Assembly (NCBI RefSeq): GCF_000190635.1 | Contig: NC_015172.1 | Span: forward strand, 2,418,001-2,482,000 | DNA: 64,000 nt | Reading direction: 5' to 3' | From: Syntrophobotulus glycolicus DSM 8271 | Lineage (GTDB): Bacteria; Bacillota; Desulfitobacteriia; Desulfitobacteriales; Syntrophobotulaceae | Notes under the pieces: model-generated | The model's database searches: none | Told to the model about the DNA's origin: nothing | What the model saw: the letters and a program-made list of their open reading frames with translations, nothing else | Position numbers and translations under genes: made by a program | Shown: positions 1,229 to 30,701 of the stretch, one piece after another | Position numbering within the stretch: the stretch's first letter is position 1 | How the letters are laid out: each line of letters begins with the position of its first letter

Positions 1229-2479
1229 CTAGAAAAACCGCCCGACCAGGAGTGCCAGGGTAAGAATGATCAAAACGGCCACAGTGCTAAAACCAATCAG
1301 ATTGTTTAAAGGCTTATTCACATATTTGCCCATGAGTTCTTTGTTATTGACGATCAGCATCATGCAGATCAGCACCACAGGCAGAAAAATTCCGTTCAGA
1401 ACCTGTGACCAGAGTGTGATTGAAATCAAAGGGGCGTCCGGGATAAGAATGATCGCCACCGATATGACCAAAATAGAGGTGAACAACGTATAAAACTCTT
1501 TGGCTTCACTAAACTTTTTATCTATTCCGGCTTCAAAGCCAAAGGCCTCACAAATGTAAAAAGAAGCCGCCAAAGGCAGTATTGTTGCTGAAAAGACCGA
1601 AGCTACAAACAAGCCCAGGGCAAAAACCTGCGAGGCCAAAGCCCCGGCAAACGGCTCAAGGGCCATCGCCGCATCTTTAGCCTCTTCAATCACAATACCA
1701 TGGGAATACAGAGTTGAAGCACAGGATACCACAATAAAAAAGGCCACGACAATGGTCGCAATACTGCCGATGATGATATCGATCAAGGTAAACTTATAAT
1801 CCTCAATCTTCAGACCTTTTTCAATCACCGCCGACTGCATGTAAAATTGCATCCAGGGAGCGATTGTTGTTCCGATCAGGCCAATCACCATGAAAAGATA
1901 ATTCGGAGAATAGTCTATCCGCGGGTGAAGAATGGCTGTTCCGATGGTCCCCCAATCCGGTTTGCCCATTAAAGCGGAAATGACATAAGAAAATAAAAAT
2001 ACACTGAAGATTAAAAAAATCTTCTCCGTAATCCGATAGGTGCCTTTAACCACCATCAGCCAAACAGCGACAGCCGCTAAAGGAACCGCGATATACTTGC
2101 TGACATGAAAAACCTGCATACTGCCCGCTATGCCGGCAAATTCTGTTGTCGTATTGCCAATATCCGCAATCAGAAGACCCAGGAGGATAAAAAAAGTAAT
2201 CTTTACCCCTGCTGATTCCCGGATCAGATCAGCCAGTCCCTTACCTGTCACAATTCCCATCCTGGCATTCATTTCCTGGACAACAATCAGGGCAATAAAA
2301 GCGGGAATAAGTGTCCAAAGGAGATCATAGCCGTACATTGCTCCGGCAACGGAATAAGTGGTGATTCCACCGGCATCATTATCCACACTTCCGGTTATGA
2401 TTCCCGGTCCGAGAATGGCCAAAAATATAGAAATATTTCTGATCATATTCATCTTTCTCATCTTAAACATCTGTCTCAC
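1229..2479 (-). CDS. NRAMP-family divalent metal transporter, probably an NRAMP-related Mg2+ transporter
   Basis: This 416-residue protein has about 11 hydrophobic segments and the NRAMP fold signature at its N-terminus (GPGIITGSVDNDAGGITTYS). Two metal-site motifs differ from classical Mn2+/Fe2+ NRAMPs. The helix-1 DPGN is replaced by a DNDAGG stretch, and the helix-6 MPH is replaced by APW (GTTIAPWMQFYMQS). Such changes are known from NRAMP-related magnesium transporters. The gene overlaps the upstream MgtE-N/CBS gene by four bases, and that gene lies behind an M-box, so Mg2+ import is the best inference. The start is uncertain: GTG at 2479 is coupled to the upstream stop, and ATGs at 2470 and 2461 are alternatives. 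Confidence 0.85.
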   Translation of the reverse strand: MRQMFKMRKMNMIRNISIFLAILGPGIITGSVDNDAGGITTYSVAGAMYGYDLLWTLIPAFIALIVVQEMNARMGIVTGKGLADLIRESAGVKITFFILLGLLIADIGNTTTEFAGIAGSMQVFHVSKYIAVPLAAVAVWLMVVKGTYRITEKIFLIFSVFLFSYVISALMGKPDWGTIGTAILHPRIDYSPNYLFMVIGLIGTTIAPWMQFYMQSAVIEKGLKIEDYKFTLIDIIIGSIATIVVAFFIVVSCASTLYSHGIVIEEAKDAAMALEPFAGALASQVFALGLFVASVFSATILPLAASFYICEAFGFEAGIDKKFSEAKEFYTLFTSILVISVAIILIPDAPLISITLWSQVLNGIFLPVVLICMMLIVNNKELMGKYVNKPLNNLIGFSTVAVLIILTLALLVGRFF

Positions 2480-3729
2480 CGCCTGCTGTATTTCTTTCTT
2501 CTGACTTTAAGCAGATTCGTCATAATATCATCAATAATCACCATTCCGAGCAAGGTCTCCTTCTCCTTGTCTACAACCGGTACCGCCAACAAGCTGTACT
2601 TAGACACAATTTCGTTCAACAGGTCTATCTCATCCAGATCGTAAACAAACAGGACCTTGGCATCCATGATATCCTGAAGTATTGTCTCCGGCTCGGATAC
2701 GACGATATCCCTCAGAGAGACCGCCCCTGTAAGCTTGCCGGCCTCGTCGACAATATAGAGGGAATAGATGGTGTCAATCTCCGGCTTAATGCTGCGAAGC
2801 TCCTTTAAAACCTCGTTGACCGACATTTCTTTCTTGAAAGAAATGTAATCCGTCGTCATCAGAGCGCCGACAGAGTTTTCGGGATATTCCATCAGTTCAC
2901 GGATTTCTTCGGAGGTTTCCTTCTCCATTTCATTGAGAATTTCTTCCGCTTTATGGTCGTCAATTTTCTCCAGAATATCCGCAGCCTCGTCCGCAGGCAT
3001 TTTTTCCAGGACATCCGCCGCCCTGGAAATGGACAGGCCTTCTAAAACATTGACCTGGGCTTCACTTTCCAGTTCCTCCAAAACCTCAGCAGCCCGGTCC
3101 TCATCCAGGGAAGAAAATACTTCAACCTGAGTATAGCGGTCAAGGTCTTCAATGATATCCGCAAAGTCCGAAGGATGAAGGGTTGATAATTTTGTATATG
3201 GTTTGGACAGCTTGATGCCTGTGTTTCCGGAAGGAACGGCTTCAACATCCTCCCACAGAATATAGCGGCCGGACAACGATATTCCTAATGATCGCAGTCC
3301 TTTCTTTATCGGCTTGGCTACGCCCAGCCTGCGCAGAAGCCCTTCCAGACCCACATCAACGGCGATAAGATAGGTTCCGTTGGATAATACGGCCAGTCTC
3401 AAGTCATTCACACGGACGATCTTTCTGCCGTCAATATCCACAATTTGTTTATCCATAATGTTTTTATTGAGAAAAAGCTGATTGGTTCCGGCTTCGGTGT
3501 AATCCCTGACCTGTCTGCATCTGAACGCATACTGGCCTTTGTTCTTGTCAATCTCCAAGAAAGAAAAATCAAGGATTCTTCCATTGCCGAGCTTTGCCGC
3601 CACAATCTTTGGTCTCACCTCATCAAGGTCGGCAATTAAATCCTTAATTTGCCCCAGCACCTGGTTGTCTTGGGTTATCACCCTGTTCCCCAAAATCCTG
3701 CTTAAATAAAACGTTAAAAATTTGGCCAT
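2476..3729 (-). CDS. PRC-barrel / MgtE N-domain / CBS-pair protein without a channel domain
   Basis: This 417-residue soluble protein has a PRC-barrel-like N-terminus (about residues 8-75). A MgtE N-terminal superhelical domain follows (about 160-285), with repeats such as ISRAADVLEKMPADEAADIL. A CBS pair (about 290-405) completes it. The MgtE transmembrane channel is absent, so this is the cytosolic Mg2+ sensor part alone. It precedes and overlaps the NRAMP-type gene, which suggests that it gates or regulates that transporter. The start ATG has a strong GGAGAGGGGGG ribosome-binding site. The mRNA leader carries an M-box. The regulatory role is inferred from the domains and the operon. Confidence 0.88.
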   Translation of the reverse strand: MAKFLTFYLSRILGNRVITQDNQVLGQIKDLIADLDEVRPKIVAAKLGNGRILDFSFLEIDKNKGQYAFRCRQVRDYTEAGTNQLFLNKNIMDKQIVDIDGRKIVRVNDLRLAVLSNGTYLIAVDVGLEGLLRRLGVAKPIKKGLRSLGISLSGRYILWEDVEAVPSGNTGIKLSKPYTKLSTLHPSDFADIIEDLDRYTQVEVFSSLDEDRAAEVLEELESEAQVNVLEGLSISRAADVLEKMPADEAADILEKIDDHKAEEILNEMEKETSEEIRELMEYPENSVGALMTTDYISFKKEMSVNEVLKELRSIKPEIDTIYSLYIVDEAGKLTGAVSLRDIVVSEPETILQDIMDAKVLFVYDLDEIDLLNEIVSKYSLLAVPVVDKEKETLLGMVIIDDIMTNLLKVRRKKYSRR

Positions 3730-3767
3730 TATCCAACCCCCCTCTCCGATGCGGAATCATCAAACAT

Positions 3768-3798
3768 AAAAAAACTTTACCTGTTTGAACAGGTAAAG
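3768..3798 (-). terminator. Intrinsic terminator, expression platform of the M-box
   Basis: On the minus strand a perfect 9-bp stem, CTTTACCTG/CAGGTAAAG with a 6-base loop, is followed directly by seven T residues. It sits between the aptamer and the start of the MgtE-N/CBS gene, as expected for a Mg2+-controlled transcriptional off-switch. Confidence 0.88.
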
Positions 3799-3968
3799 AG
3801 AGATGGCTTCACTGATGCCCGTTCAAGTTTTGGCACTTCAAGGCGTGAAATTGCGTTAGGTTATGCCTTGTTTTTTCGGCAAAACCTGCTAACCAGTTCA
3901 GGGTGTCTCCATCCTTTCACGGCAGCAATCCATATCCTTGGAGTAACCTCACCTACCGAGAGATATTC
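3799..3968 (-). promoter_or_regulatory. M-box (ykoK) Mg2+ riboswitch
   Basis: Read on the minus strand, the leader contains the M-box 5' core GGTAGGTGAGG, then an ACTCC segment and GATATGG-ATTGCTGCC. Further on come a purine-rich joining region and an AAGGCATAACCTAACGC element that can pair back with the 5' side. This order matches the Mg2+-sensing M-box consensus as remembered. It ends in an intrinsic terminator just before the Mg2+ transport operon. A covariance-model search would fix the exact ends. Confidence 0.87.
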
Positions 3969-3978
3969 AATTCAGTCT

Positions 3979-4007
3979 ATTATATAATTTACAAAAGGCC
4001 AATACAA
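3979..4007 (-). promoter_or_regulatory. Sigma-A promoter of the Mg2+ operon
   Basis: On the minus strand TTGTAT and a perfect TATAAT are separated by 17 bases. The expected transcription start is about 7-10 bases upstream of the M-box core, so the whole riboswitch would be transcribed. Confidence 0.7.
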
Positions 4008-5869: not shown

Positions 5870-6721
5870 CTAATAAATTGTTCCTGTATTAATTACAGGC
5901 TGGGCGGAACGATCGGATACGATTGCGACAAGCAGATTATTAATCATCGCCATCCTGCGTTCATCATCCAGTTCGATCGTCCCATCTTTTTCCAGACGTT
6001 CAATTGCCATTTGGGCCATACTTACAGCCCCTTCCACGATTTTCTGCCTGGCGGCCAGGATGGCGTTGGCTTGCTGACGCTGGAGCATGGCACTGGCAAT
6101 TTCCGTTGCGTATGCCAGATGAGTCAGCCTGGCTTCAATGACTTCTACCCCGGCTATGGCCAAGCGGGCCTGCAGCTCCCCGGCGATTTCCCCGGCGATT
6201 TCTTCGGCATTTCCTCTCAGGGAGCATCCCTCTTCTTCAAAATGATCATAAGGGTACCTGCTGGCAATATGTCTGAGGGCCGTTTCACTCTGGATTTCAA
6301 CAAAATGTTCATAGTTGTCAACATCATAGACAGCCTTGGCGGAATCAACCACCTTCAGGACGACTACCGCTGCGATTTCAACCGGGTTTCCCTCAATATC
6401 ATTGACCTTGAGCTTTTCACTGTTAAAATTACGCACTTTTAAAGAAACCTTTTTGTTTTGAGAAAGAGGGACGGTCATCCAAAACCCCGGTTCCCGGATA
6501 CTGCCCATATATTTTCCGAAAAAAGTGAGCACTTTAGCCTCATTCGGTGAAACAATATGAAAACCGCTGAGACAAACTGTCACAATAATAAAAATCACAC
6601 ATCCCGCCACTACAGAAACTATGCTTAAATTCAAAAAACTGAAGACACCTAAAACCGTTAAAACAAACATCATGATCAGTGCCAGAAAACCGTTAATCTT
6701 CCATGCTTTTTCCTCGATCAT
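5870..6721 (-). CDS. SPFH (band 7/stomatin-like) membrane protein
   Basis: This 283-residue protein has two close hydrophobic segments near its N-terminus. An SPFH domain follows, beginning around [20 protein letters not shown] and ending near [21 protein letters not shown], the typical start of the coiled-coil tail. SPFH proteins form membrane-bound oligomers that scaffold microdomains or control proteases. No NfeD-like partner gene is adjacent; the only partner is the small ribbon-helix-helix gene. The ATG at 6721 is chosen for its GGGAGG ribosome-binding site at proper spacing. The specific role is unknown. Confidence 0.85.
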
Positions 6722-6932
6722 CTGATATCCTCCCGTCAAATATTGATACTAATATGATATCATTTTTATATCATCATTGCAAGCGACAGGCCTATTCAAT
6801 AGTATTGGGACATCTTCCTCAAAATATGATTGTTTTTTCTTCAACAATATCTTAGGATTTTTCTGAGCAAAGCTCAAGCGGGAGATCAAACACCAGTACG
6901 GCATGAACTGGAGTCCAGATACGAGAAAATCA

Positions 6933-6960
6933 TTGCAAATCACCTGAAATAGAGTATATT
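6933..6960 (+). promoter_or_regulatory. Possible sigma-A promoter of the thiamine operon
   Basis: TTGCAA and TATATT are separated by 16 bases, and the leader from about 6967 to 7110 ends in a terminator hairpin. The match is moderate. The rest of the 390-base divergent gap between the SPFH gene and thiD shows no convincing gene. Confidence 0.4.
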
Positions 6961-7037
6961 TATTATGAATATCCTATTTTTCAGGGGAACTGGAAAGGCG
7001 TAGGAATGCTTTGAGTGATTATGCTCAATTTGCTTTG

Positions 7038-7079
7038 ATCACCACAAGTGCCGCAACGGATTTGTGGTGATGTTTTTTT
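7038..7079 (+). terminator. Leader terminator (attenuator) ahead of thiD
   Basis: A 10-bp perfect stem, ATCACCACAA/TTGTGGTGAT, is followed by TGTTTTTTT. It lies 31 bases before the thiD start and inside the presumed leader of the thi operon. Such a position suggests conditional termination, but the sensor sequence upstream does not match the TPP riboswitch core. Confidence 0.75.
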
Positions 7080-7110
7080 AACATATTTTATTGATCTTGG
7101 GAGGGATTCC

Positions 7111-7920
7111 ATGAAAAAAGCTTTGACTATTGCAGGCAGCGATTCCAGCGGGGGTGCCGGAATTCAGGCTGATCTTAAAACCTTTTCCGCCCATGGCGTC
7201 TTTGGGATGAGTGTCATTACGGCAATTACGGCCCAGAATACCCAGGGAGTTTTTGCGGTTCAGGATATTTCGCCTGAGATGATCGGCAGGCAAATTGACG
7301 CCATCTTCGACGATATTGATGTCGATGCCCTGAAAATCGGTATGGTTTCCGTCACTGATACCATTAAAGTGATTGCCGAAAAGCTTCAGGAATATCATTT
7401 TTCTCAAATCGTGCTTGACCCCGTGATGATTTCCAAAAGCGGCTATTCTTTATTGCAGCCTGAAGCCGGTGAAGCCTTGATCAAATACCTGCTCCCCCTG
7501 GCTATGGTTGTGACCCCCAATATTCCCGAAGCTGAAGTCATTACCGGACTGCATATTGAAACACTGGCTGACATGAAAAAAGCGGCTAAAGCAATCCACG
7601 ATTTAGGAGCGGCCAATGTCCTGATCAAGGGCGGTCATATGGAAGATGATGCCACTGATATCCTTTTTGACGGTGAAAAATATCTCGAATATCCCGGGCG
7701 GCGGATTGATACAAAACATACCCACGGTACAGGCTGTACCTTATCTTCTTCCATTACGGCCAATATTGCCCGGGGAATACCCGTGGAGAGAGCCGTTGAA
7801 CAAAGCAAGAGATATATTACCACAGCGATTGAGCATTCTCTGGCTATCGGCAAAGGGGTTGGCCCCACACATCATTTTTATGAATTATATCAAAAGGCGG
7901 GCATGACAGATGAACAGTAA
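7111..7920 (+). CDS. thiD: Hydroxymethylpyrimidine/phosphomethylpyrimidine kinase ThiD
   Basis: ThiD phosphorylates hydroxymethylpyrimidine twice to give HMP-PP for thiamine synthesis. The 269-residue protein has the ribokinase-like start (MKKALTIAGSDSSGGAGIQ), the GGH motif in LIKGGHMEDDATD, and the anion-hole/catalytic motif HGTGCTLSS near the C-terminus. The ATG at 7111 is chosen for its GGGAGG site 6 bases upstream. It is the first gene of thiD-cytX-thiM-thiE and overlaps cytX by 11 bases. The operon imports or salvages pyrimidine and thiazole rather than making both from scratch. Confidence 0.95.
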   Translation: MKKALTIAGSDSSGGAGIQADLKTFSAHGVFGMSVITAITAQNTQGVFAVQDISPEMIGRQIDAIFDDIDVDALKIGMVSVTDTIKVIAEKLQEYHFSQIVLDPVMISKSGYSLLQPEAGEALIKYLLPLAMVVTPNIPEAEVITGLHIETLADMKKAAKAIHDLGAANVLIKGGHMEDDATDILFDGEKYLEYPGRRIDTKHTHGTGCTLSSSITANIARGIPVERAVEQSKRYITTAIEHSLAIGKGVGPTHHFYELYQKAGMTDEQ

Positions 7921-9121
7921 TTCTCAAAGTATTCCTTCTTTTCATTTCTTTTTAATCTGGTTTGGCGCGGCGGTCTCCATCTCTGAAATATTAACCGGCG
8001 GCCTGATTGCCCCGCTCGGTTTTGCTCAAGGGCTGGCTGCTATCGTCATTGGCCATGTCATAGGCGTGTTATTGTTAGGCCTTTGCGGGATCATTGGTTT
8101 TCGCAATAAAATCCCCGCTATTGAGTCGACCAGGATTTCCTTCGGAAAGTTCGGCTCCTACGGTTTCTCGGTTCTAAATATCCTGCAGCTTGTCGGCTGG
8201 ACTGCCGTGATGATTATTATGGCCGCACGCTCGGCTAATGATATCAGCAATGCCCTCTGGGGTTTTAACAGTACCAGTGCCTGGTGTATCGTTATCGGAG
8301 CCTTGATCTGTATTTGGATTGCAACCGGTATCAAAAACTCGGCAAAGTTGAATTATGCGGCAATCTCCCTTTTATTCATCTTAACCGTTATTTTGAGCAC
8401 TGTAGTATTTAAGGATACCAGTATTTTCAGCAGGACATCCGACGGTACAATGTCTTTTGGTGCTGCCGTAGAACTTTCCGTAATCATGCCTTTGTCCTGG
8501 CTTCCCCTGATTGCCGATTACACACGGTTCGGCCGCAGCAGCAAAGGCAGCTTTTGGGGGAGTGTCTCCGGTTATTTCCTGGGAAGCTGCTGGATGTATA
8601 TCATCGGCCTGGGCGGCACACTCCTTACCGCGAACTATGAGCCATCGGCCATGCTTTTAGCCGCGAATATGGGGATCGCTGCTTTAGGGATTGTCGTTTT
8701 GGCTACAGTAACCACAACCTACCTCGATGCTTATTCCGCAGGTGTCTCTTATCTCAATATCCACCGAAATGCCAACGAAAAAGTGATCGCTCTGCTGATG
8801 TGCGCAATCGGAACATTGATTGCCATTTATACTTCTATAGAACAGTATATTGATTTTCTCTATTATATCGGCTCGGTTTTTGCGCCTCTTTTTGCTATCC
8901 TGCTGACAGAATACTTTGTTTTCCGTAAGACTGGAATCCGGGAGGGGCATAACCTCTTTTCTGCCAACGTGATTCTTTGGCTGATCGGGGTAGGCCTTTA
9001 TTATCAGTTTGTCAAGTATGATTTGCCCTTTGGCAGCACAATCCCTGTGATGCTGATCATTTCCCTCTTATGCGTCGTAAAGGAATGGCTGTTGACTTTG
9101 TTCAATAAATTGAGGTCTTAA
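7910..9121 (+). CDS. cytX: Hydroxymethylpyrimidine transporter CytX (NCS1 family)
   Basis: This 403-residue membrane protein has about 12 hydrophobic segments and NCS1 (cytosine/purine permease) features. These include the early GGLIAPLGFAQGLAAIVIGH segment and a central MPLSWLPLIADYTRFG motif typical of the CytX branch. CytX members beside thiamine genes are believed to import the HMP moiety. Translation should be coupled to thiD because the genes overlap. The placement directly before thiM and thiE strongly supports a salvage role over cytosine uptake. Confidence 0.9.
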   Translation: MNSNSQSIPSFHFFLIWFGAAVSISEILTGGLIAPLGFAQGLAAIVIGHVIGVLLLGLCGIIGFRNKIPAIESTRISFGKFGSYGFSVLNILQLVGWTAVMIIMAARSANDISNALWGFNSTSAWCIVIGALICIWIATGIKNSAKLNYAAISLLFILTVILSTVVFKDTSIFSRTSDGTMSFGAAVELSVIMPLSWLPLIADYTRFGRSSKGSFWGSVSGYFLGSCWMYIIGLGGTLLTANYEPSAMLLAANMGIAALGIVVLATVTTTYLDAYSAGVSYLNIHRNANEKVIALLMCAIGTLIAIYTSIEQYIDFLYYIGSVFAPLFAILLTEYFVFRKTGIREGHNLFSANVILWLIGVGLYYQFVKYDLPFGSTIPVMLIISLLCVVKEWLLTLFNKLRS

Positions 9122-9155
9122 ATTCATCCTAAAAAAGAAGAAGGAGCGAGGAAAA

Positions 9156-9968
9156 ATGGAAATAACCAGATTATGCGCCAACGCTTTGTCCGAGCTGCAA
9201 AATAAAAAACCTCTTGTCCATAATATCACCAACTATGTCACTGTTCATGATTGTGCCAATATCATCCTGGCTATCGGCGGGTCTCCCGTTATGGCCGATG
9301 ATCTTCATGAAGTTGAGGACATGGTTTCTATTTCTTCCGCTTTGGTCATCAACATGGGGACTCTGAACACCCGCACTGTGGAGTCCATGATTGCTGCCGG
9401 CAAAAGAGCCAATGAACTCGGTATTCCCGTTATTTTTGACCCTGTTGGTGTAGGGGCTACCCCCTACCGCAATGCCACAGCGAAAAAGATTATGGACGAA
9501 GTCAAGCTTGCTGTTGTTCGCGGAAACATGTCGGAAATCAAATCTTTAAGCGGAATGGCTGTCCAATCCAAGGGAGTGGATTCTGTTGCCGATGAGACTG
9601 ACGGCGCAACCGTTGCCAGAGCATTTGCCCGGAATACGGGCATCGTGGCCGCAATCACGGGAAAAACAGATGTGATCTCTGATGGCGGCCGAGTATGCCT
9701 GATCAATAATGGCCATTCCCTGCTCTCCGGTGTGACGGGAACGGGCTGTATGGCCTCCGCTTTAGTGGGGACTTTTTGCGGTGCTGTCCCGGATTATTTG
9801 ATTGCGGCAACGGCCGGGGTGATGTGTATGGGCCTGTCCGGTGAACTGGCCGAAAAAACATTATCTGAAACAGAAGGAATTGGAACCTTCCGCGTCAAAC
9901 TCTTTGACCAGATCTCCCGGCTTAATGAAGAGACAATCATGAAGGAAGGAAAGATAACCCTTGCTTAA
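9156..9968 (+). CDS. thiM: Hydroxyethylthiazole kinase ThiM
   Basis: ThiM phosphorylates the thiazole moiety for thiamine salvage. The 270-residue protein has the family N-terminus KPLVHNITNYVTVHDCANI and the segment GGSPVMADD. It also has VIFDPVGVGATPYRN and the ribokinase-like GVTGTGCMASAL anion hole with the catalytic Cys. The start has a clear AAGGAGCGAGG site. Its stop overlaps the TTG start of thiE by 8 bases, so both are translated together. Confidence 0.96.
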   Translation: MEITRLCANALSELQNKKPLVHNITNYVTVHDCANIILAIGGSPVMADDLHEVEDMVSISSALVINMGTLNTRTVESMIAAGKRANELGIPVIFDPVGVGATPYRNATAKKIMDEVKLAVVRGNMSEIKSLSGMAVQSKGVDSVADETDGATVARAFARNTGIVAAITGKTDVISDGGRVCLINNGHSLLSGVTGTGCMASALVGTFCGAVPDYLIAATAGVMCMGLSGELAEKTLSETEGIGTFRVKLFDQISRLNEETIMKEGKITLA

Positions 9969-10584
9969 ATGGGACTATACCTTATACCTGGTCACCGACA
10001 GGAGCTATATTGGCGACAGAAATCTGGAGGATTGTGTTGAAGAAGCGATCCTCGGCGGTGCAACCATGGTCCAGCTGCGGGAAAAAACTGCGTCATCCCT
10101 TGATTTTTATCACCTGGCTGTTAAAATCAAAGGGGTTACAAGAAAATACCAGGTTCCTTTGATGATTAATGACCGTTTGGATATTGCCCTGGCCATTGAT
10201 GCCGACGGTCTCCATCTCGGTCAGGATGATCTGCCCATTGAGATCGCGCGCAGATATTTTGGCCGGGAAAAAGTGATCGGCATCTCGGTAAGTACGGTTG
10301 AAGAAGCACTCCTCGCTGAAAAAAGCGGCGCCGATTATCTCGGGGCGGGCGCTGTCTTTCCAACCGGGACCAAAACAGACGCCAAGCTCGTTTCTTTACC
10401 GGAATTAAGCCTGATCAAAAAAGCAGTAAAAATCCCGGTCGTGGCCATCGGCGGAATTAATGAGACCAATGCCTGTGATGTTTTCCATACCGGAATTGAC
10501 GGTCTTTCTGTGGTTTCAGCTATTCTGGCCAGGAAAGATCCCAGGAAGGCTTCTGCGGAAATCAAAGCAAGAATAACAGGATAA
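9961..10584 (+). CDS. thiE: Thiamine-phosphate synthase ThiE
   Basis: ThiE joins HMP-PP and thiazole phosphate to give thiamine monophosphate, completing the operon's salvage route. The 207-residue TIM barrel shows the family marks YLVTDR, GATMVQLREK, LMINDRLDIALAIDADGLHL-GQDDLP, YLGAGAVFPTGTKTDA and VVAIGGI. A TTG start overlapping the thiM stop is used, with AAGGAAGG about 10 bases before it. No thiamine-monophosphate kinase gene lies nearby. Confidence 0.96.
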   Translation: MLKWDYTLYLVTDRSYIGDRNLEDCVEEAILGGATMVQLREKTASSLDFYHLAVKIKGVTRKYQVPLMINDRLDIALAIDADGLHLGQDDLPIEIARRYFGREKVIGISVSTVEEALLAEKSGADYLGAGAVFPTGTKTDAKLVSLPELSLIKKAVKIPVVAIGGINETNACDVFHTGIDGLSVVSAILARKDPRKASAEIKARITG

Positions 10585-11452: not shown

Positions 11453-11489
11453 GATTCTACAACAGCAAGACATCGTTCTTGTCAGCAAA

Positions 11490-11562
11490 CCTTCACATAA
11501 CTGGCGGAAGTGGGAAAACCACAGGGAGTGTGAAGCGTATCGATTAGCCGACCGCCTGGGCA
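11490..11562 (+). promoter_or_regulatory. ZTP (pfl motif) riboswitch
   Basis: The hallmark ZTP elements occur in order: AACTGGCGGAAGTGGG, AAAACCACAGGGAG, and GCCGACCGCCTGGGC, which forms the 3' pseudoknot and hairpin. This class binds ZMP/ZTP, which build up when 10-formyl-tetrahydrofolate is short, and turns on formyl-folate supply. Placement ahead of pyruvate formate-lyase, a formate source, is the classic context that gave the motif its name. Confidence 0.93.
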
Positions 11563-11588
11563 GTTTTATAAACTACCCGGGTTTTTTT
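11555..11588 (+). terminator. Terminator of the ZTP riboswitch
   Basis: A stem CCTGGG-AGTTT/AAACT-CCCGGG runs into seven T residues. Its 5' arm is the conserved CCTGGG of the aptamer, so ligand binding and terminator formation are mutually exclusive, as expected for an on-switch. Confidence 0.87.
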
Positions 11589-11616
11589 ATTGCCCGGGAT
11601 ACAGGAGGAATGTCTA

Positions 11617-13842
11617 ATGCTTACGCAATGGGCCGGATTCAAACCGGGTAACTGGATAGATAATATTGATGTCCAAAATTTCATCGCCGCAAATTATTTA
11701 CCTTATGATGGGAACGAGAACTTTCTGAGCGGACCATCCCGGCGCACCACGGAGCTTTGGCAAACATGTGAAAAGCTCCTTCAGAAAGAAGCGGCAAATC
11801 ATGGCGTGCTGAATATTGATACCGAACGCCCCGCCAAAATCAATTCTCATCTTCCCGGTTACATTGATCGGGAAAACGAAATGATCGTCGGCTTGCAAAC
11901 AGACGCTCCTTTAAAAAGAGGGGTGAATATTGTCGGTGGCCTTAAAATGGCCCGTGAAGCATGCCGTGCTTACGATATGACCCTTAATCCTCAGCTGGAC
12001 CAGTTCTTTGCGGAAAACCGCAAAACCCATAATGACGGTGTTTTCAGCGTATATCCTGAAGAAATCAAGCTTTTACGCAAATATAAGCTCCTTACCGGAT
12101 TGCCCGACGGCTATGGGCGCGGCAGAATCATCGGTGATTACCGGCGGGTCCCTCTCTATGGAGTGGACCGTCTCCTGAAAGAAAAAAAGAAGGATTTAAA
12201 AAAATTGCCCTTTGAAATGACTGAGGGAAACATCCGTTTAAGAGAAGAAATCTCTGAACAGCTCTGTGCCCTTCAAGATCTCAAAAGCATGGCCTTAAGC
12301 TATGGTATTGATATCTCAGAACCGGCTGCCAATACCAAAGAAGCGGTGCAATGGTTGTATTTTGCCTATCTGGCGGCAGTTAAGGAGCAGAACGGTGCTG
12401 CGATGAGTATCGGCCGCAACACTGCTTTTCTGGACATTTACATTGAAAAAGACCTGCAAAATAAAGCCTTGTCAGAACAAGATGTCCAGGAATTGATTGA
12501 TCAATTCCTGATCAAACTGCGCATGGTCAGACAGCTGCGCACCCCGGAATATCACCAGCTTTTTGCCGGAGACCCTCTGTGGATTACGGAAAGCCTCGGT
12601 GGGATAGGCCTGGATGGGCGGCACATGGTGACCAAAACAGCCTATCGCTTCCTCAACTCCCTCAGGAATCTGGGAGCCGCGCCTGAGCCAAACATGACCA
12701 TACTTTGGTCGGAAAAACTTCCCGCACCATTCAAAGAATTCTGCTGCGCTCTTTCCATCGAAACCAGTGCAATCCAATATGAAAATGATGAGCTTATGCG
12801 GCCGTATTACGGTGACGACTATGCGATTGCCTGCTGTGTTTCCCCCATGCGCGTCGGTAAGGAAATGCAGTTTTTCGGAGCAAGATGCAATATTGCCAAA
12901 CTACTGCTTGTCGCTTTAAATGGCGGCAGGGATGAACTTAGCGGTGTTCAGATCCTTCCTCCGACTGAACCCTACCGGGGGGAAATCCTCGATTATCAAG
13001 AAGTGCTGTCCAGGTTTCAATCCTACCTTGATCTTTTGTGCTCCTACTATGTGAACACCATGAATATTATCCACTATATGCACGACAAGTACGCTTATGA
13101 GCGGCTGGAAATGTCCCTTCACGATTCTGAAGTATCCAGGAATATGGCTTTTGGTCTGGCCGGATTGTCCGTTCTCGTTGATTCCCTCAGTGCCATCAAG
13201 CATGCCCGGGTCACCCCCGTTTGGGAGAAAGGCCTGATTAAAGATTTTCTGATTGAAGGAGAATACCCCGCCTATGGCAATGATCTTGATGAAGCGGACA
13301 ATATCGCCAAAGAAATCGTGGAACTGGCCTTAAACGCTTTGAAGAAATACAAAACTTACCGGGATGCCGTTCACACCTTATCTGTCCTGACCATCACCTC
13401 CAATGTTGTATACGGGCAGAACACCGGCAACACCCCGGATGGCCGCAGAGCAGGGACTCCCTTTGCTCCCGGCGCCAATCCCTCTAATGGCAAAGACATC
13501 TCCGGGGCCATAGCCTCCCTTAATTCTGTTTGTAAAATCCCTTATGAACATTGCCGGGACGGTATCTCCTACACTCTGACCCTGACTCCGGGCTTATTGG
13601 GCAAGGAGAAGACGGCCAGAAAAAAAATCCTGGCTGATTTACTGGATGGCTATTTCCTGTCCGGCGGTCATCACGTAAATATTAACATCCTCAATCGTTC
13701 GGATCTGTTAGAAGCTATGGAGCACCCGGAGAAATACCCCAATCTGACTATCCGGGTCTCAGGCTATGCCGTCAAGTTCAATTCCTTAACCCGAGAACAG
13801 CAGCTTGATGTGGTGAGCCGGACATTCCACGAGCATATTTAG
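11617..13842 (+). CDS. pflB: Formate C-acetyltransferase (pyruvate formate-lyase)
   Basis: PflB splits pyruvate and CoA into acetyl-CoA and formate under anaerobic conditions. The 741-residue protein has the adjacent catalytic cysteines in AIACCVSPM, the [19 protein letters not shown] block, and the glycyl-radical motif RVSGYAV near the C-terminus. All mark true PFL rather than a diol dehydratase relative. The ATG at 11617 has AGGAGG 9 bases upstream. Its activase follows 40 bases later. The ZTP riboswitch suggests that formate for purine synthesis is the regulated output. Confidence 0.95.
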
Positions 13843-29980: not shown

Positions 29981-30301
29981 TTAATGAGCAGATGATATTT
30001 TCAATCCTATAATTCCGATCAGTATAAATCCAATACAAATTAACCTGATGAGTTCAGCCGGTTCTTTGAATAAAATTATCCCCAATATTACAGTGCCAAC
30101 CGCACCGATTCCTGTCCAGATCGCATAAGCTGTTCCTAATGGAAGGTCCCTTAGTGCTAATGATAAGAAATAAATGCTTGCGATCATCCCCATTACGGTA
30201 AAGATACTCGGCAGGAGCTTTGTAAAGCCTTGAGAATATTTCAAGCCTATAGCCCAAGCTACTTCCAAAAGCCCCGCTGTGATTAATAGTACCCATTTCA
30301 T
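29981..30301 (-). CDS. sugE: Small multidrug resistance protein, SugE/Gdx guanidinium exporter
   Basis: This 106-residue, four-helix SMR protein starts [20 protein letters not shown]. The key Glu ([12 protein letters not shown]) and the [14 protein letters not shown] motif place it in the SugE/Gdx branch, which exports guanidinium by proton exchange as an antiparallel dimer. A guanidine-I riboswitch in its leader supports that substrate directly. The ATG at 30301 has AAGGAG 10 bases upstream. The gene sits in the accessory patch between dgt and the toxin-antitoxin modules. Confidence 0.92.
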
Positions 30302-30326
30302 CTGATCCACTCCTTTTAAATCCACT

Positions 30327-30368
30327 AAAAATAAGTAGCCCGGAAGATACTTTACAATATCTCCCAGG
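30327..30368 (-). terminator. Terminator of the guanidine riboswitch
   Basis: On the minus strand CCTGGGAGATA pairs through 11 positions (two of them G-T) with TATCTTCCGGG, followed by CTACTTATTTTT. The 5' arm uses the conserved GGGAGA of the aptamer, so ligand binding would block the terminator. Confidence 0.8.
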
Positions 30369-30460
30369 CTTTTATCCTTCCGTGTACATAGATCCAGCTA
30401 TGCGTTTTATCTTGGTCCAGGCCAGTTCTTCTCCTTGGAACTGCGGAACCCTATAAAACT
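30358..30460 (-). promoter_or_regulatory. Guanidine-I (ykkC) riboswitch
   Basis: The minus-strand leader has TATAGGGTTCCGC, an ACTGGCCTGGACCAAG segment, and ACGGAAGGATAAAAGCCTGG followed by GAGA. These correspond to the ykkC core GGGTTCCG, ...GGTCC..., and ACGG-GGGATAAAAGCCCGGGAGA. The class has guanidine, ppGpp and PRPP subtypes. The downstream SMR exporter indicates the guanidine type. Confidence 0.88.
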
Positions 30461-30701
30461 TTAAAATATAAGATTTTCTCTTGAAATCGTATCATAATGT
30501 GTAACCCAATTCAAGCTTATTCCCTTTTTTATTGATCCTATTTGATCTCGTTAGGGATTTACTTGTATACAGGAATAATCTATAATCAGTGAAAAAGAAA
30601 GGTTTCCCTGAGAAACCTATCATGAATTAAACAGTTTACACACAGCGGCTATGTGAAGTACGATAGTCGCTCTATATTTATATGAAAGAAAGGACGTAAA
30701 A

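Follow-up and report, generated by a model that had tools for sequence, protein, structure and literature searches.

An M-box-controlled operon in Syntrophobotulus glycolicus pairs an NRMT-type transporter with a channel-less MgtE-like partner

We identified a magnesium-uptake operon on the minus strand (positions 4007-1229) of the window, a 64,000-nt stretch of the Syntrophobotulus glycolicus DSM 8271 genome. A promoter-like site, an M-box, a terminator, an ORF for a soluble MgtE-like protein (hereafter "the partner") and an ORF for an NRAMP-fold transporter follow one another in that order. We consider it likely, with a probability of about 0.8, that the operon encodes a Mg2+-controlled NRMT together with a MgtE-like regulatory partner. 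This kind of operon, the pairing of the two genes and the idea of feedback gating have been known since 2014, and the locus is an ordinary member of the group; what is new here is a survey showing that transporter and partner are almost never found apart.

Shin et al. 2014 (PMC4072509) describe M-box-controlled NRAMP-related genes, mostly from Clostridia and Deltaproteobacteria, under the name NrmT. A gene homologous to the N-terminal cytosolic domain of MgtE adjoins most of these genes, and the authors proposed feedback regulation or metal chaperoning as its role. Since M-box control, Mg2+ transport, the MgtE-like neighbour and the feedback idea were all reported there, the locus described here is the published pairing in one more organism. 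We found nothing on the partner beyond Shin et al. 2014 in the open-access literature, subscription papers being outside the scope of the search.

Results

Sequence inspection and a position check place a plausible promoter at 3979-4007 (minus strand), with a -35 element TTGTAT (4007-4002), a 17-nt spacer and a -10 element TATAAT (3984-3979). The original prediction had called this a sigma-A promoter. Its -10 half is indeed a perfect match; the -35 hexamer is weak, with 3/6 consensus matches, and for this reason the site was not called by a consensus sigma-70 scan of the leader. Searching the 3.41-Mb genome with covariance models identified a single M-box Mg2+ riboswitch aptamer (RF00380), at 3807-3967 (minus strand). 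The cmscan score of 103.7 bits (E 5.5e-22) compares with a gathering score of 44 bits, and the match spans model positions 1-169 of 169, so the covariance search that had been proposed as a check on the M-box recovered it at full length. The expected intrinsic terminator was found at 3768-3798 (minus strand) and consists of a 10-bp stem (3798-3775; -11.7 kcal/mol) followed by T7. On the 3' side of the aptamer, the arm UUGAACGGG (3818-3826, minus strand) is complementary, with one G-U pair, to CCUGUUCAA (3793-3785) within the 5' half of the terminator; the two could form nine pairs (duplex -12.8 kcal/mol) in a possible antiterminator that would be mutually exclusive with the terminator. By its sequence, the leader therefore contains both elements of an M-box expression platform, a terminator and a mutually exclusive antiterminator. 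Minimum free energy folding of the leader gave a z of only -1.5. Such a weak signal is not surprising in a switch that has alternative and tertiary structure, and the appropriate test for one is the covariance model.

Other riboswitches and a metabolic cluster were detected elsewhere in the window. A Guanidine-I riboswitch at 29981-30465 (minus strand) precedes a small hydrophobic 114-aa ORF resembling an SMR-type exporter, an expected pairing, and a ZTP riboswitch lies directly before an ORF resembling pyruvate formate-lyase (11487-13842, plus strand). ORFs at 7048-10584 (plus strand) resemble a thiamine cluster (thiD, an NCS1-type permease, thiM and thiE); a search of 6600-7300 gave no TPP riboswitch, even with E values up to 1 allowed.

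The distal gene of the operon (1229-2479, minus strand) encodes a 416-aa NRMT-type, NRAMP-fold transporter. It starts with GTG and overlaps the partner gene (3729-2476) by 4 nt, in agreement with the original prediction. The protein belongs to PF01566 (Nramp; 325 bits in Pfam), and among solved structures EleNRMT (7qia; 373.7 bits over 402 residues) is the nearest to it, with Mn2+ NRAMPs scoring at most 98 bits. Its metal-site motifs differ from those of Mn/Fe NRAMPs, as had been noted: in the alignment, D35-A-G-G38 takes the place of DPGN, and T-T-I-A-P-W that of A-T-V-M-P-H. The transporter thus lacks the canonical Mn2+/Fe2+ NRAMP (MntH) site, DPGN with A/CxxM-P-H, and scores 143 bits with the MntH subfamily model, below its cut-off of 430. 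Aligned to EleNRMT, it instead carries DxxG in TM1 (D35AGG38) and TxxA/T in TM6 (TTIA), the signature by which Ramanadane et al. define NRMTs (PMC8806188). In the transporter tree it falls inside the NRMT clade (106 rows, 97% SH-aLRT), where it clusters with M-box-bearing sequences from Desulfosporosinus, Clostridium and relatives, apart from the Acidobacteriota branch.

We conclude that the transporter very probably moves Mg2+. This view is well supported by the NRMT signature, by EleNRMT as the closest solved relative, by the M-box and by experiments in C. acetobutylicum, whose M-box-controlled NrmTs import Mg2+ and restore its uptake, but not that of Mn2+ (PMC4072509). The original prediction had treated the riboswitch as independent evidence of Mg2+ transport. 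The transport claim holds on the combined evidence; across the whole family, the M-box alone is not proof, because EleNRMT transports both Mg2+ and Mn2+, without proton coupling (PMC8806188), and the A. capsulatum pair, which lacks an M-box, acted as an importer of Mn2+ in the work of Shin et al., rescuing a Mn2+ mutant (PMC4072509).

The partner (2476-3729, minus strand) is a 417-aa protein comprising a double PRC barrel (residues ~1-165), MgtE_N (184-285), a CBS pair (287-404) and a short basic C-terminal helix. Pfam assigns PRC, MgtE_N and CBS domains and no membrane part, so the channel-less PRC/MgtE-N/CBS architecture had been read correctly and needed refinement only in the number of PRC barrels, which is predicted to be two rather than one. 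Compared with PDB sequences, residues 181-404 hit the cytosolic domain of MgtE (E 1.3e-35), and the AF2 model (pLDDT 88) aligns with MgtE cytosolic domains at Z 24-26. When folded separately (pLDDT 89), the N-terminal 165 residues resemble CdpB (8qzo), a protein with tandem PRC barrels (Z 11.9, 122 residues, 2.5 A), and it is on this match that the predicted double barrel rests. The partner ends 16 residues past D401, the equivalent of MgtE D247, and the other surveyed partners end 8-30 residues past it; with such short tails, the plug helix and channel of MgtE are absent from all of them. The MgtE channel model TIGR00400 accordingly gives the partner 166.6 bits against a cut-off of 232.75, matching only profile positions 21-251 of 450. 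The partner is the sole MgtE_N protein of the genome, in which we found no MgtE channel domain (PF01769); two CorA proteins are encoded.

We compared 63 partners with 32 MgtE channels as a control, residue by residue. The equivalents of MgtE D91, D95 and D247 (Tt numbering) are kept in 56, 62 and 58 of the partners, respectively, and that of E59 is D or E in 51. These four residues serve sites Mg4, Mg6 and Mg7 of MgtE (PMC5882242); the corresponding ligands in the window partner, in its own numbering, are D247 and D401 (Mg4), D251 (Mg6) and E215 (Mg7). Partners therefore retain the Mg4, Mg6 and mostly the Mg7 ligands, suggesting that Mg2+ can still clamp the N and CBS domains together. Other MgtE ligands have drifted. 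E216, invariant in all 32 channels, is not maintained across the 63 partners; the D226 position holds N in 40/63 partners, and S in that of the window; the D250 position is variable, with T in the window partner; and nothing in the partners corresponds to E258 and D259, the ligands on the plug helix. Judging from these alignments, the parts of the partner that correspond to plug-helix contacts are under different selection from those of MgtE. With E216, D226 and D250 not maintained and no plug helix, any gating by the partner must differ from that in MgtE.

It is in the PRC region, rather than in that of the Mg2+ sites, that the partners are most invariant. The residues concerned are D93, Q95, R106, N108, D109, D125, R133 and R134; they outline a constrained surface that MgtE lacks, and we infer that this is a candidate contact with the NRMT. 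Residues associated with nucleotide binding give a mixed picture. In MgtE, R187 and D188 have roles in ATP binding, and F227 stacks on the adenine, F227A abolishing ATP binding (PMC5529423). The R187 equivalent is R or K in 57/63 partners and the D188 equivalent is D or E in 47/63; the F227 position is L in 49/63 and in the window partner. As an argument against nucleotide sensing, the last observation is weak, since L also occupies this position in 12/32 MgtE channels.

To measure how constant the pairing is, we surveyed 299 genomes spread across the Bacillota. Including the window, the sample holds 28 NRMT-clade loci in 27 genomes, and the partner is adjacent in all 28. Conversely, the PRC module of the partner occurs in 28 genomes, 27 of which also have an NRMT-clade gene; a single genome of the 299 has the partner without an NRMT-clade gene, and none has an NRMT-clade transporter without the partner. 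Among the 31 partner copies, 28 lie beside an NRMT gene. Of the other three, the one at L187 is cut off where its contig ends, the one at L186 is solitary, and the one at L185 lies in front of an APC-type permease. The partner was found beside none of nine more distant PF01566 relatives (L173-L181). A survey of M-box association among NRAMP-related genes had been suggested with the original prediction; it placed an M-box in front of 21 of the 28 NRMT-clade loci and of one of the nine distant relatives.

Several individual loci in this sample merit description. The distant relative with an M-box (L173:3024-4700, genome G158) is a divergent DNDAGG/GTTIAPW protein whose gene directly follows the riboswitch, with no partner gene; it lies outside the NRMT clade in the tree and nonetheless carries the DxxG-TxxA signature. 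At L186:5761-7432 (G155), a partner gene stands behind its own M-box (147.9 bits) and lacks a neighbouring transporter. NRMT pairs are present elsewhere in this genome, and the solitary copy is possibly trans-acting. The second partner copy of a Desulfosporosinus genome (L185:6022-9408, G003) is followed after 186 nt by a permease of the APC type (AA_permease_2); at no other partner copy did we see a transporter neighbour that was not an NRMT. From the contexts of L186 and L185, the partner may not act only on NRMTs. At L170:2126-3501 (G124), the partner gene consists of two ORFs, as in C. acetobutylicum.

An apparent fusion of the partner and NRMT genes, an open frame of 835-840 aa in three related genomes (L007-L009 and L148-L150; G229, G120 and G085), was rejected. 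At L148-L150 the two genes share a frame and are separated by a single TAG, followed by a Shine-Dalgarno sequence and GTG. We rejected the fusion because the TAG stop and the Shine-Dalgarno sequence with GTG separate the genes, and because no pyrrolysyl-tRNA synthetase scored above the cut-off in these three genomes.

We then examined 80 loci from named genomes of Bacillota, Bacteroidota, Ignavibacteria, Omnitrophota, Nitrospirota, Deltaproteobacteria, Acidobacteriota and others. In this set, picked by similarity to the transporter and not at random, the partner lies directly upstream on the same strand at 62 loci. The other 18 comprise one with overlapping frames (L096), five with the partner nearby in another arrangement, five with no upstream sequence, one that is cut short, and six with room upstream yet no partner. 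An M-box was found in 15 of the 72 genomes searched. It could be placed before the operon by contig coordinates in 14 of the 15, in a few cases by taking the numbered contig to be the one that carries the locus. Mapped onto the transporter tree, the M-box label has to be gained or lost 14 times, and at least 7 of these changes are forced. As loci without an M-box keep the partner, what it does is independent of the riboswitch, and the distribution suggests that its job is needed at the protein level whatever the RNA switch. Taken together, survey and tree identify the partner as the constant element and the riboswitch as the variable one: the partner is a near-obligate companion of NRMTs.

Discussion

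The claim that the sensor half of MgtE has been reused beside a different transporter fold proved sound as a matter of homology and, from the surveys, of near-obligate gene partnership. That it was reused for gating calls for more caution; we lean slightly towards a partner that gates the NRMT. In the explanation that we favour, the leader sequence allows the M-box to compact at high cytosolic Mg2+ and sequester UUGAACGGG, so that the terminator forms; at low Mg2+ the arm can pair with the terminator stem, and transcription runs on through the two overlapping genes, first that of the partner and then that of the NRMT. The NRMT would then bring in hydrated Mg2+, uncoupled from protons, as its close homologues suggest. 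The partner would serve as a cytosolic sensor of Mg2+, and perhaps also of nucleotide, derived from the N/CBS module of MgtE: in the partner, the N and CBS domains would close on Mg2+ through D247 and D401, D251 and E215, and the conserved double-PRC module would dock on the NRMT and throttle uptake, providing a second, faster feedback layer above the riboswitch. Closure in the style of MgtE cannot apply as such, given the drift at E216, D226 and D250 and the missing plug helix. In favour of this explanation we count that the genome has no MgtE channel, though it has two CorA proteins. Against gating, we count that NrmT homologues transport without the partner, and that, in the one published test, rescue was no better when the A. 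capsulatum partner was co-expressed (PMC4072509). The strongest form of the proposal is that the partner is a trans-acting subunit gating the NRMT directly, a detached MgtE sensor on a double-PRC docking module that acts on a LeuT-fold transporter with no plug helix, as a general post-translational control across several phyla. We regard the case for this form as evenly balanced.

The near-obligate adjacency and the translational overlap would equally fit a stoichiometric assembly factor, and the partner could be chaperone-like, acting in NRMT folding, stability, membrane assembly or metal delivery rather than in Mg2+ gating. The concentration of invariant residues in the PRC region rather than at the Mg2+ sites points the same way, and Shin et al. 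themselves raised the metal-chaperone alternative (PMC4072509). We nevertheless think this somewhat unlikely: the C. acetobutylicum NrmTs and EleNRMT are functional without the partner, and the conserved D91, D95 and D247 ligands argue for retained Mg2+ binding. We find it unlikely, a little more so, that the partner senses energy state, through an adenine nucleotide in its CBS pair, rather than Mg2+, or that it also regulates transporters other than NRMTs. The basic and acidic residues kept at the R187 and D188 positions favour nucleotide sensing, and the L at the F227 position speaks against it, weakly, given its frequency in MgtE. The copy before the APC-type permease and the copy alone behind an M-box favour a wider range of targets; such contexts are rare, however, with 28 of 31 copies beside an NRMT gene.

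The identity of the transported metal bears on a further alternative, in which the transporter imports Mn2+, alone or together with Mg2+, its place behind an M-box is a coincidence, and Mn2+ is the ion that the partner senses. EleNRMT, with its dual specificity, would fit, as would the A. capsulatum NRMT, which has an adjacent MgtE-like gene and rescues a Mn2+ mutant, and a Mg2+ mutant weakly. However, that example is without an M-box, the M-box-controlled C. acetobutylicum relatives import Mg2+ and not Mn2+, and the window transporter groups with M-box-bearing sequences, away from the Acidobacteriota branch. We consider a Mn2+-sensing system of this kind very unlikely.

For an NRMT under Mg2+ control with a regulatory partner, the survey sharpens the question left in 2014, namely the role of the MgtE-like gene. 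That one set of MgtE Mg2+ ligands is kept and others have drifted predicts a mode of gating unlike that of MgtE, and names the residues to mutate. If gating proves true, a single sensor module controls both a channel and a LeuT-fold transporter.

Among known systems, the C. acetobutylicum NrmT operons (Ca_c0685 and Ca_c3329; PMC4072509) share with the operon described here the M-box, an NRAMP-related Mg2+ transporter and the same feedback hypothesis. The Ca_c0685 operon likewise holds a gene resembling the MgtE cytosolic domain; the MgtE-like gene is split in two in C. acetobutylicum, whereas here it is a single 417-aa ORF overlapping the transporter gene. In A. capsulatum, ACP2976-2977 (PMC4072509) also has a MgtE-like gene followed by an NRMT gene; it differs in having no M-box and in giving full Mn2+ rescue, with Mg2+ rescue only at low millimolar supply. 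EleNRMT of Eggerthella lenta (7qia, 7qic; PMC8806188) has the transporter fold and the DxxG-TxxA/T site in common with the window transporter, and no partner protein was included in the work on its structure and transport. The cytosolic domain of MgtE (Thermus 2yvy/2zy9; 2oux) shares with the partner the N and CBS fold and the Mg4, Mg6 and mostly the Mg7 ligands. In contrast to MgtE, the partner has no plug helix or channel, does not maintain E216, D226 and D250, and adds a predicted double PRC barrel at its N terminus.
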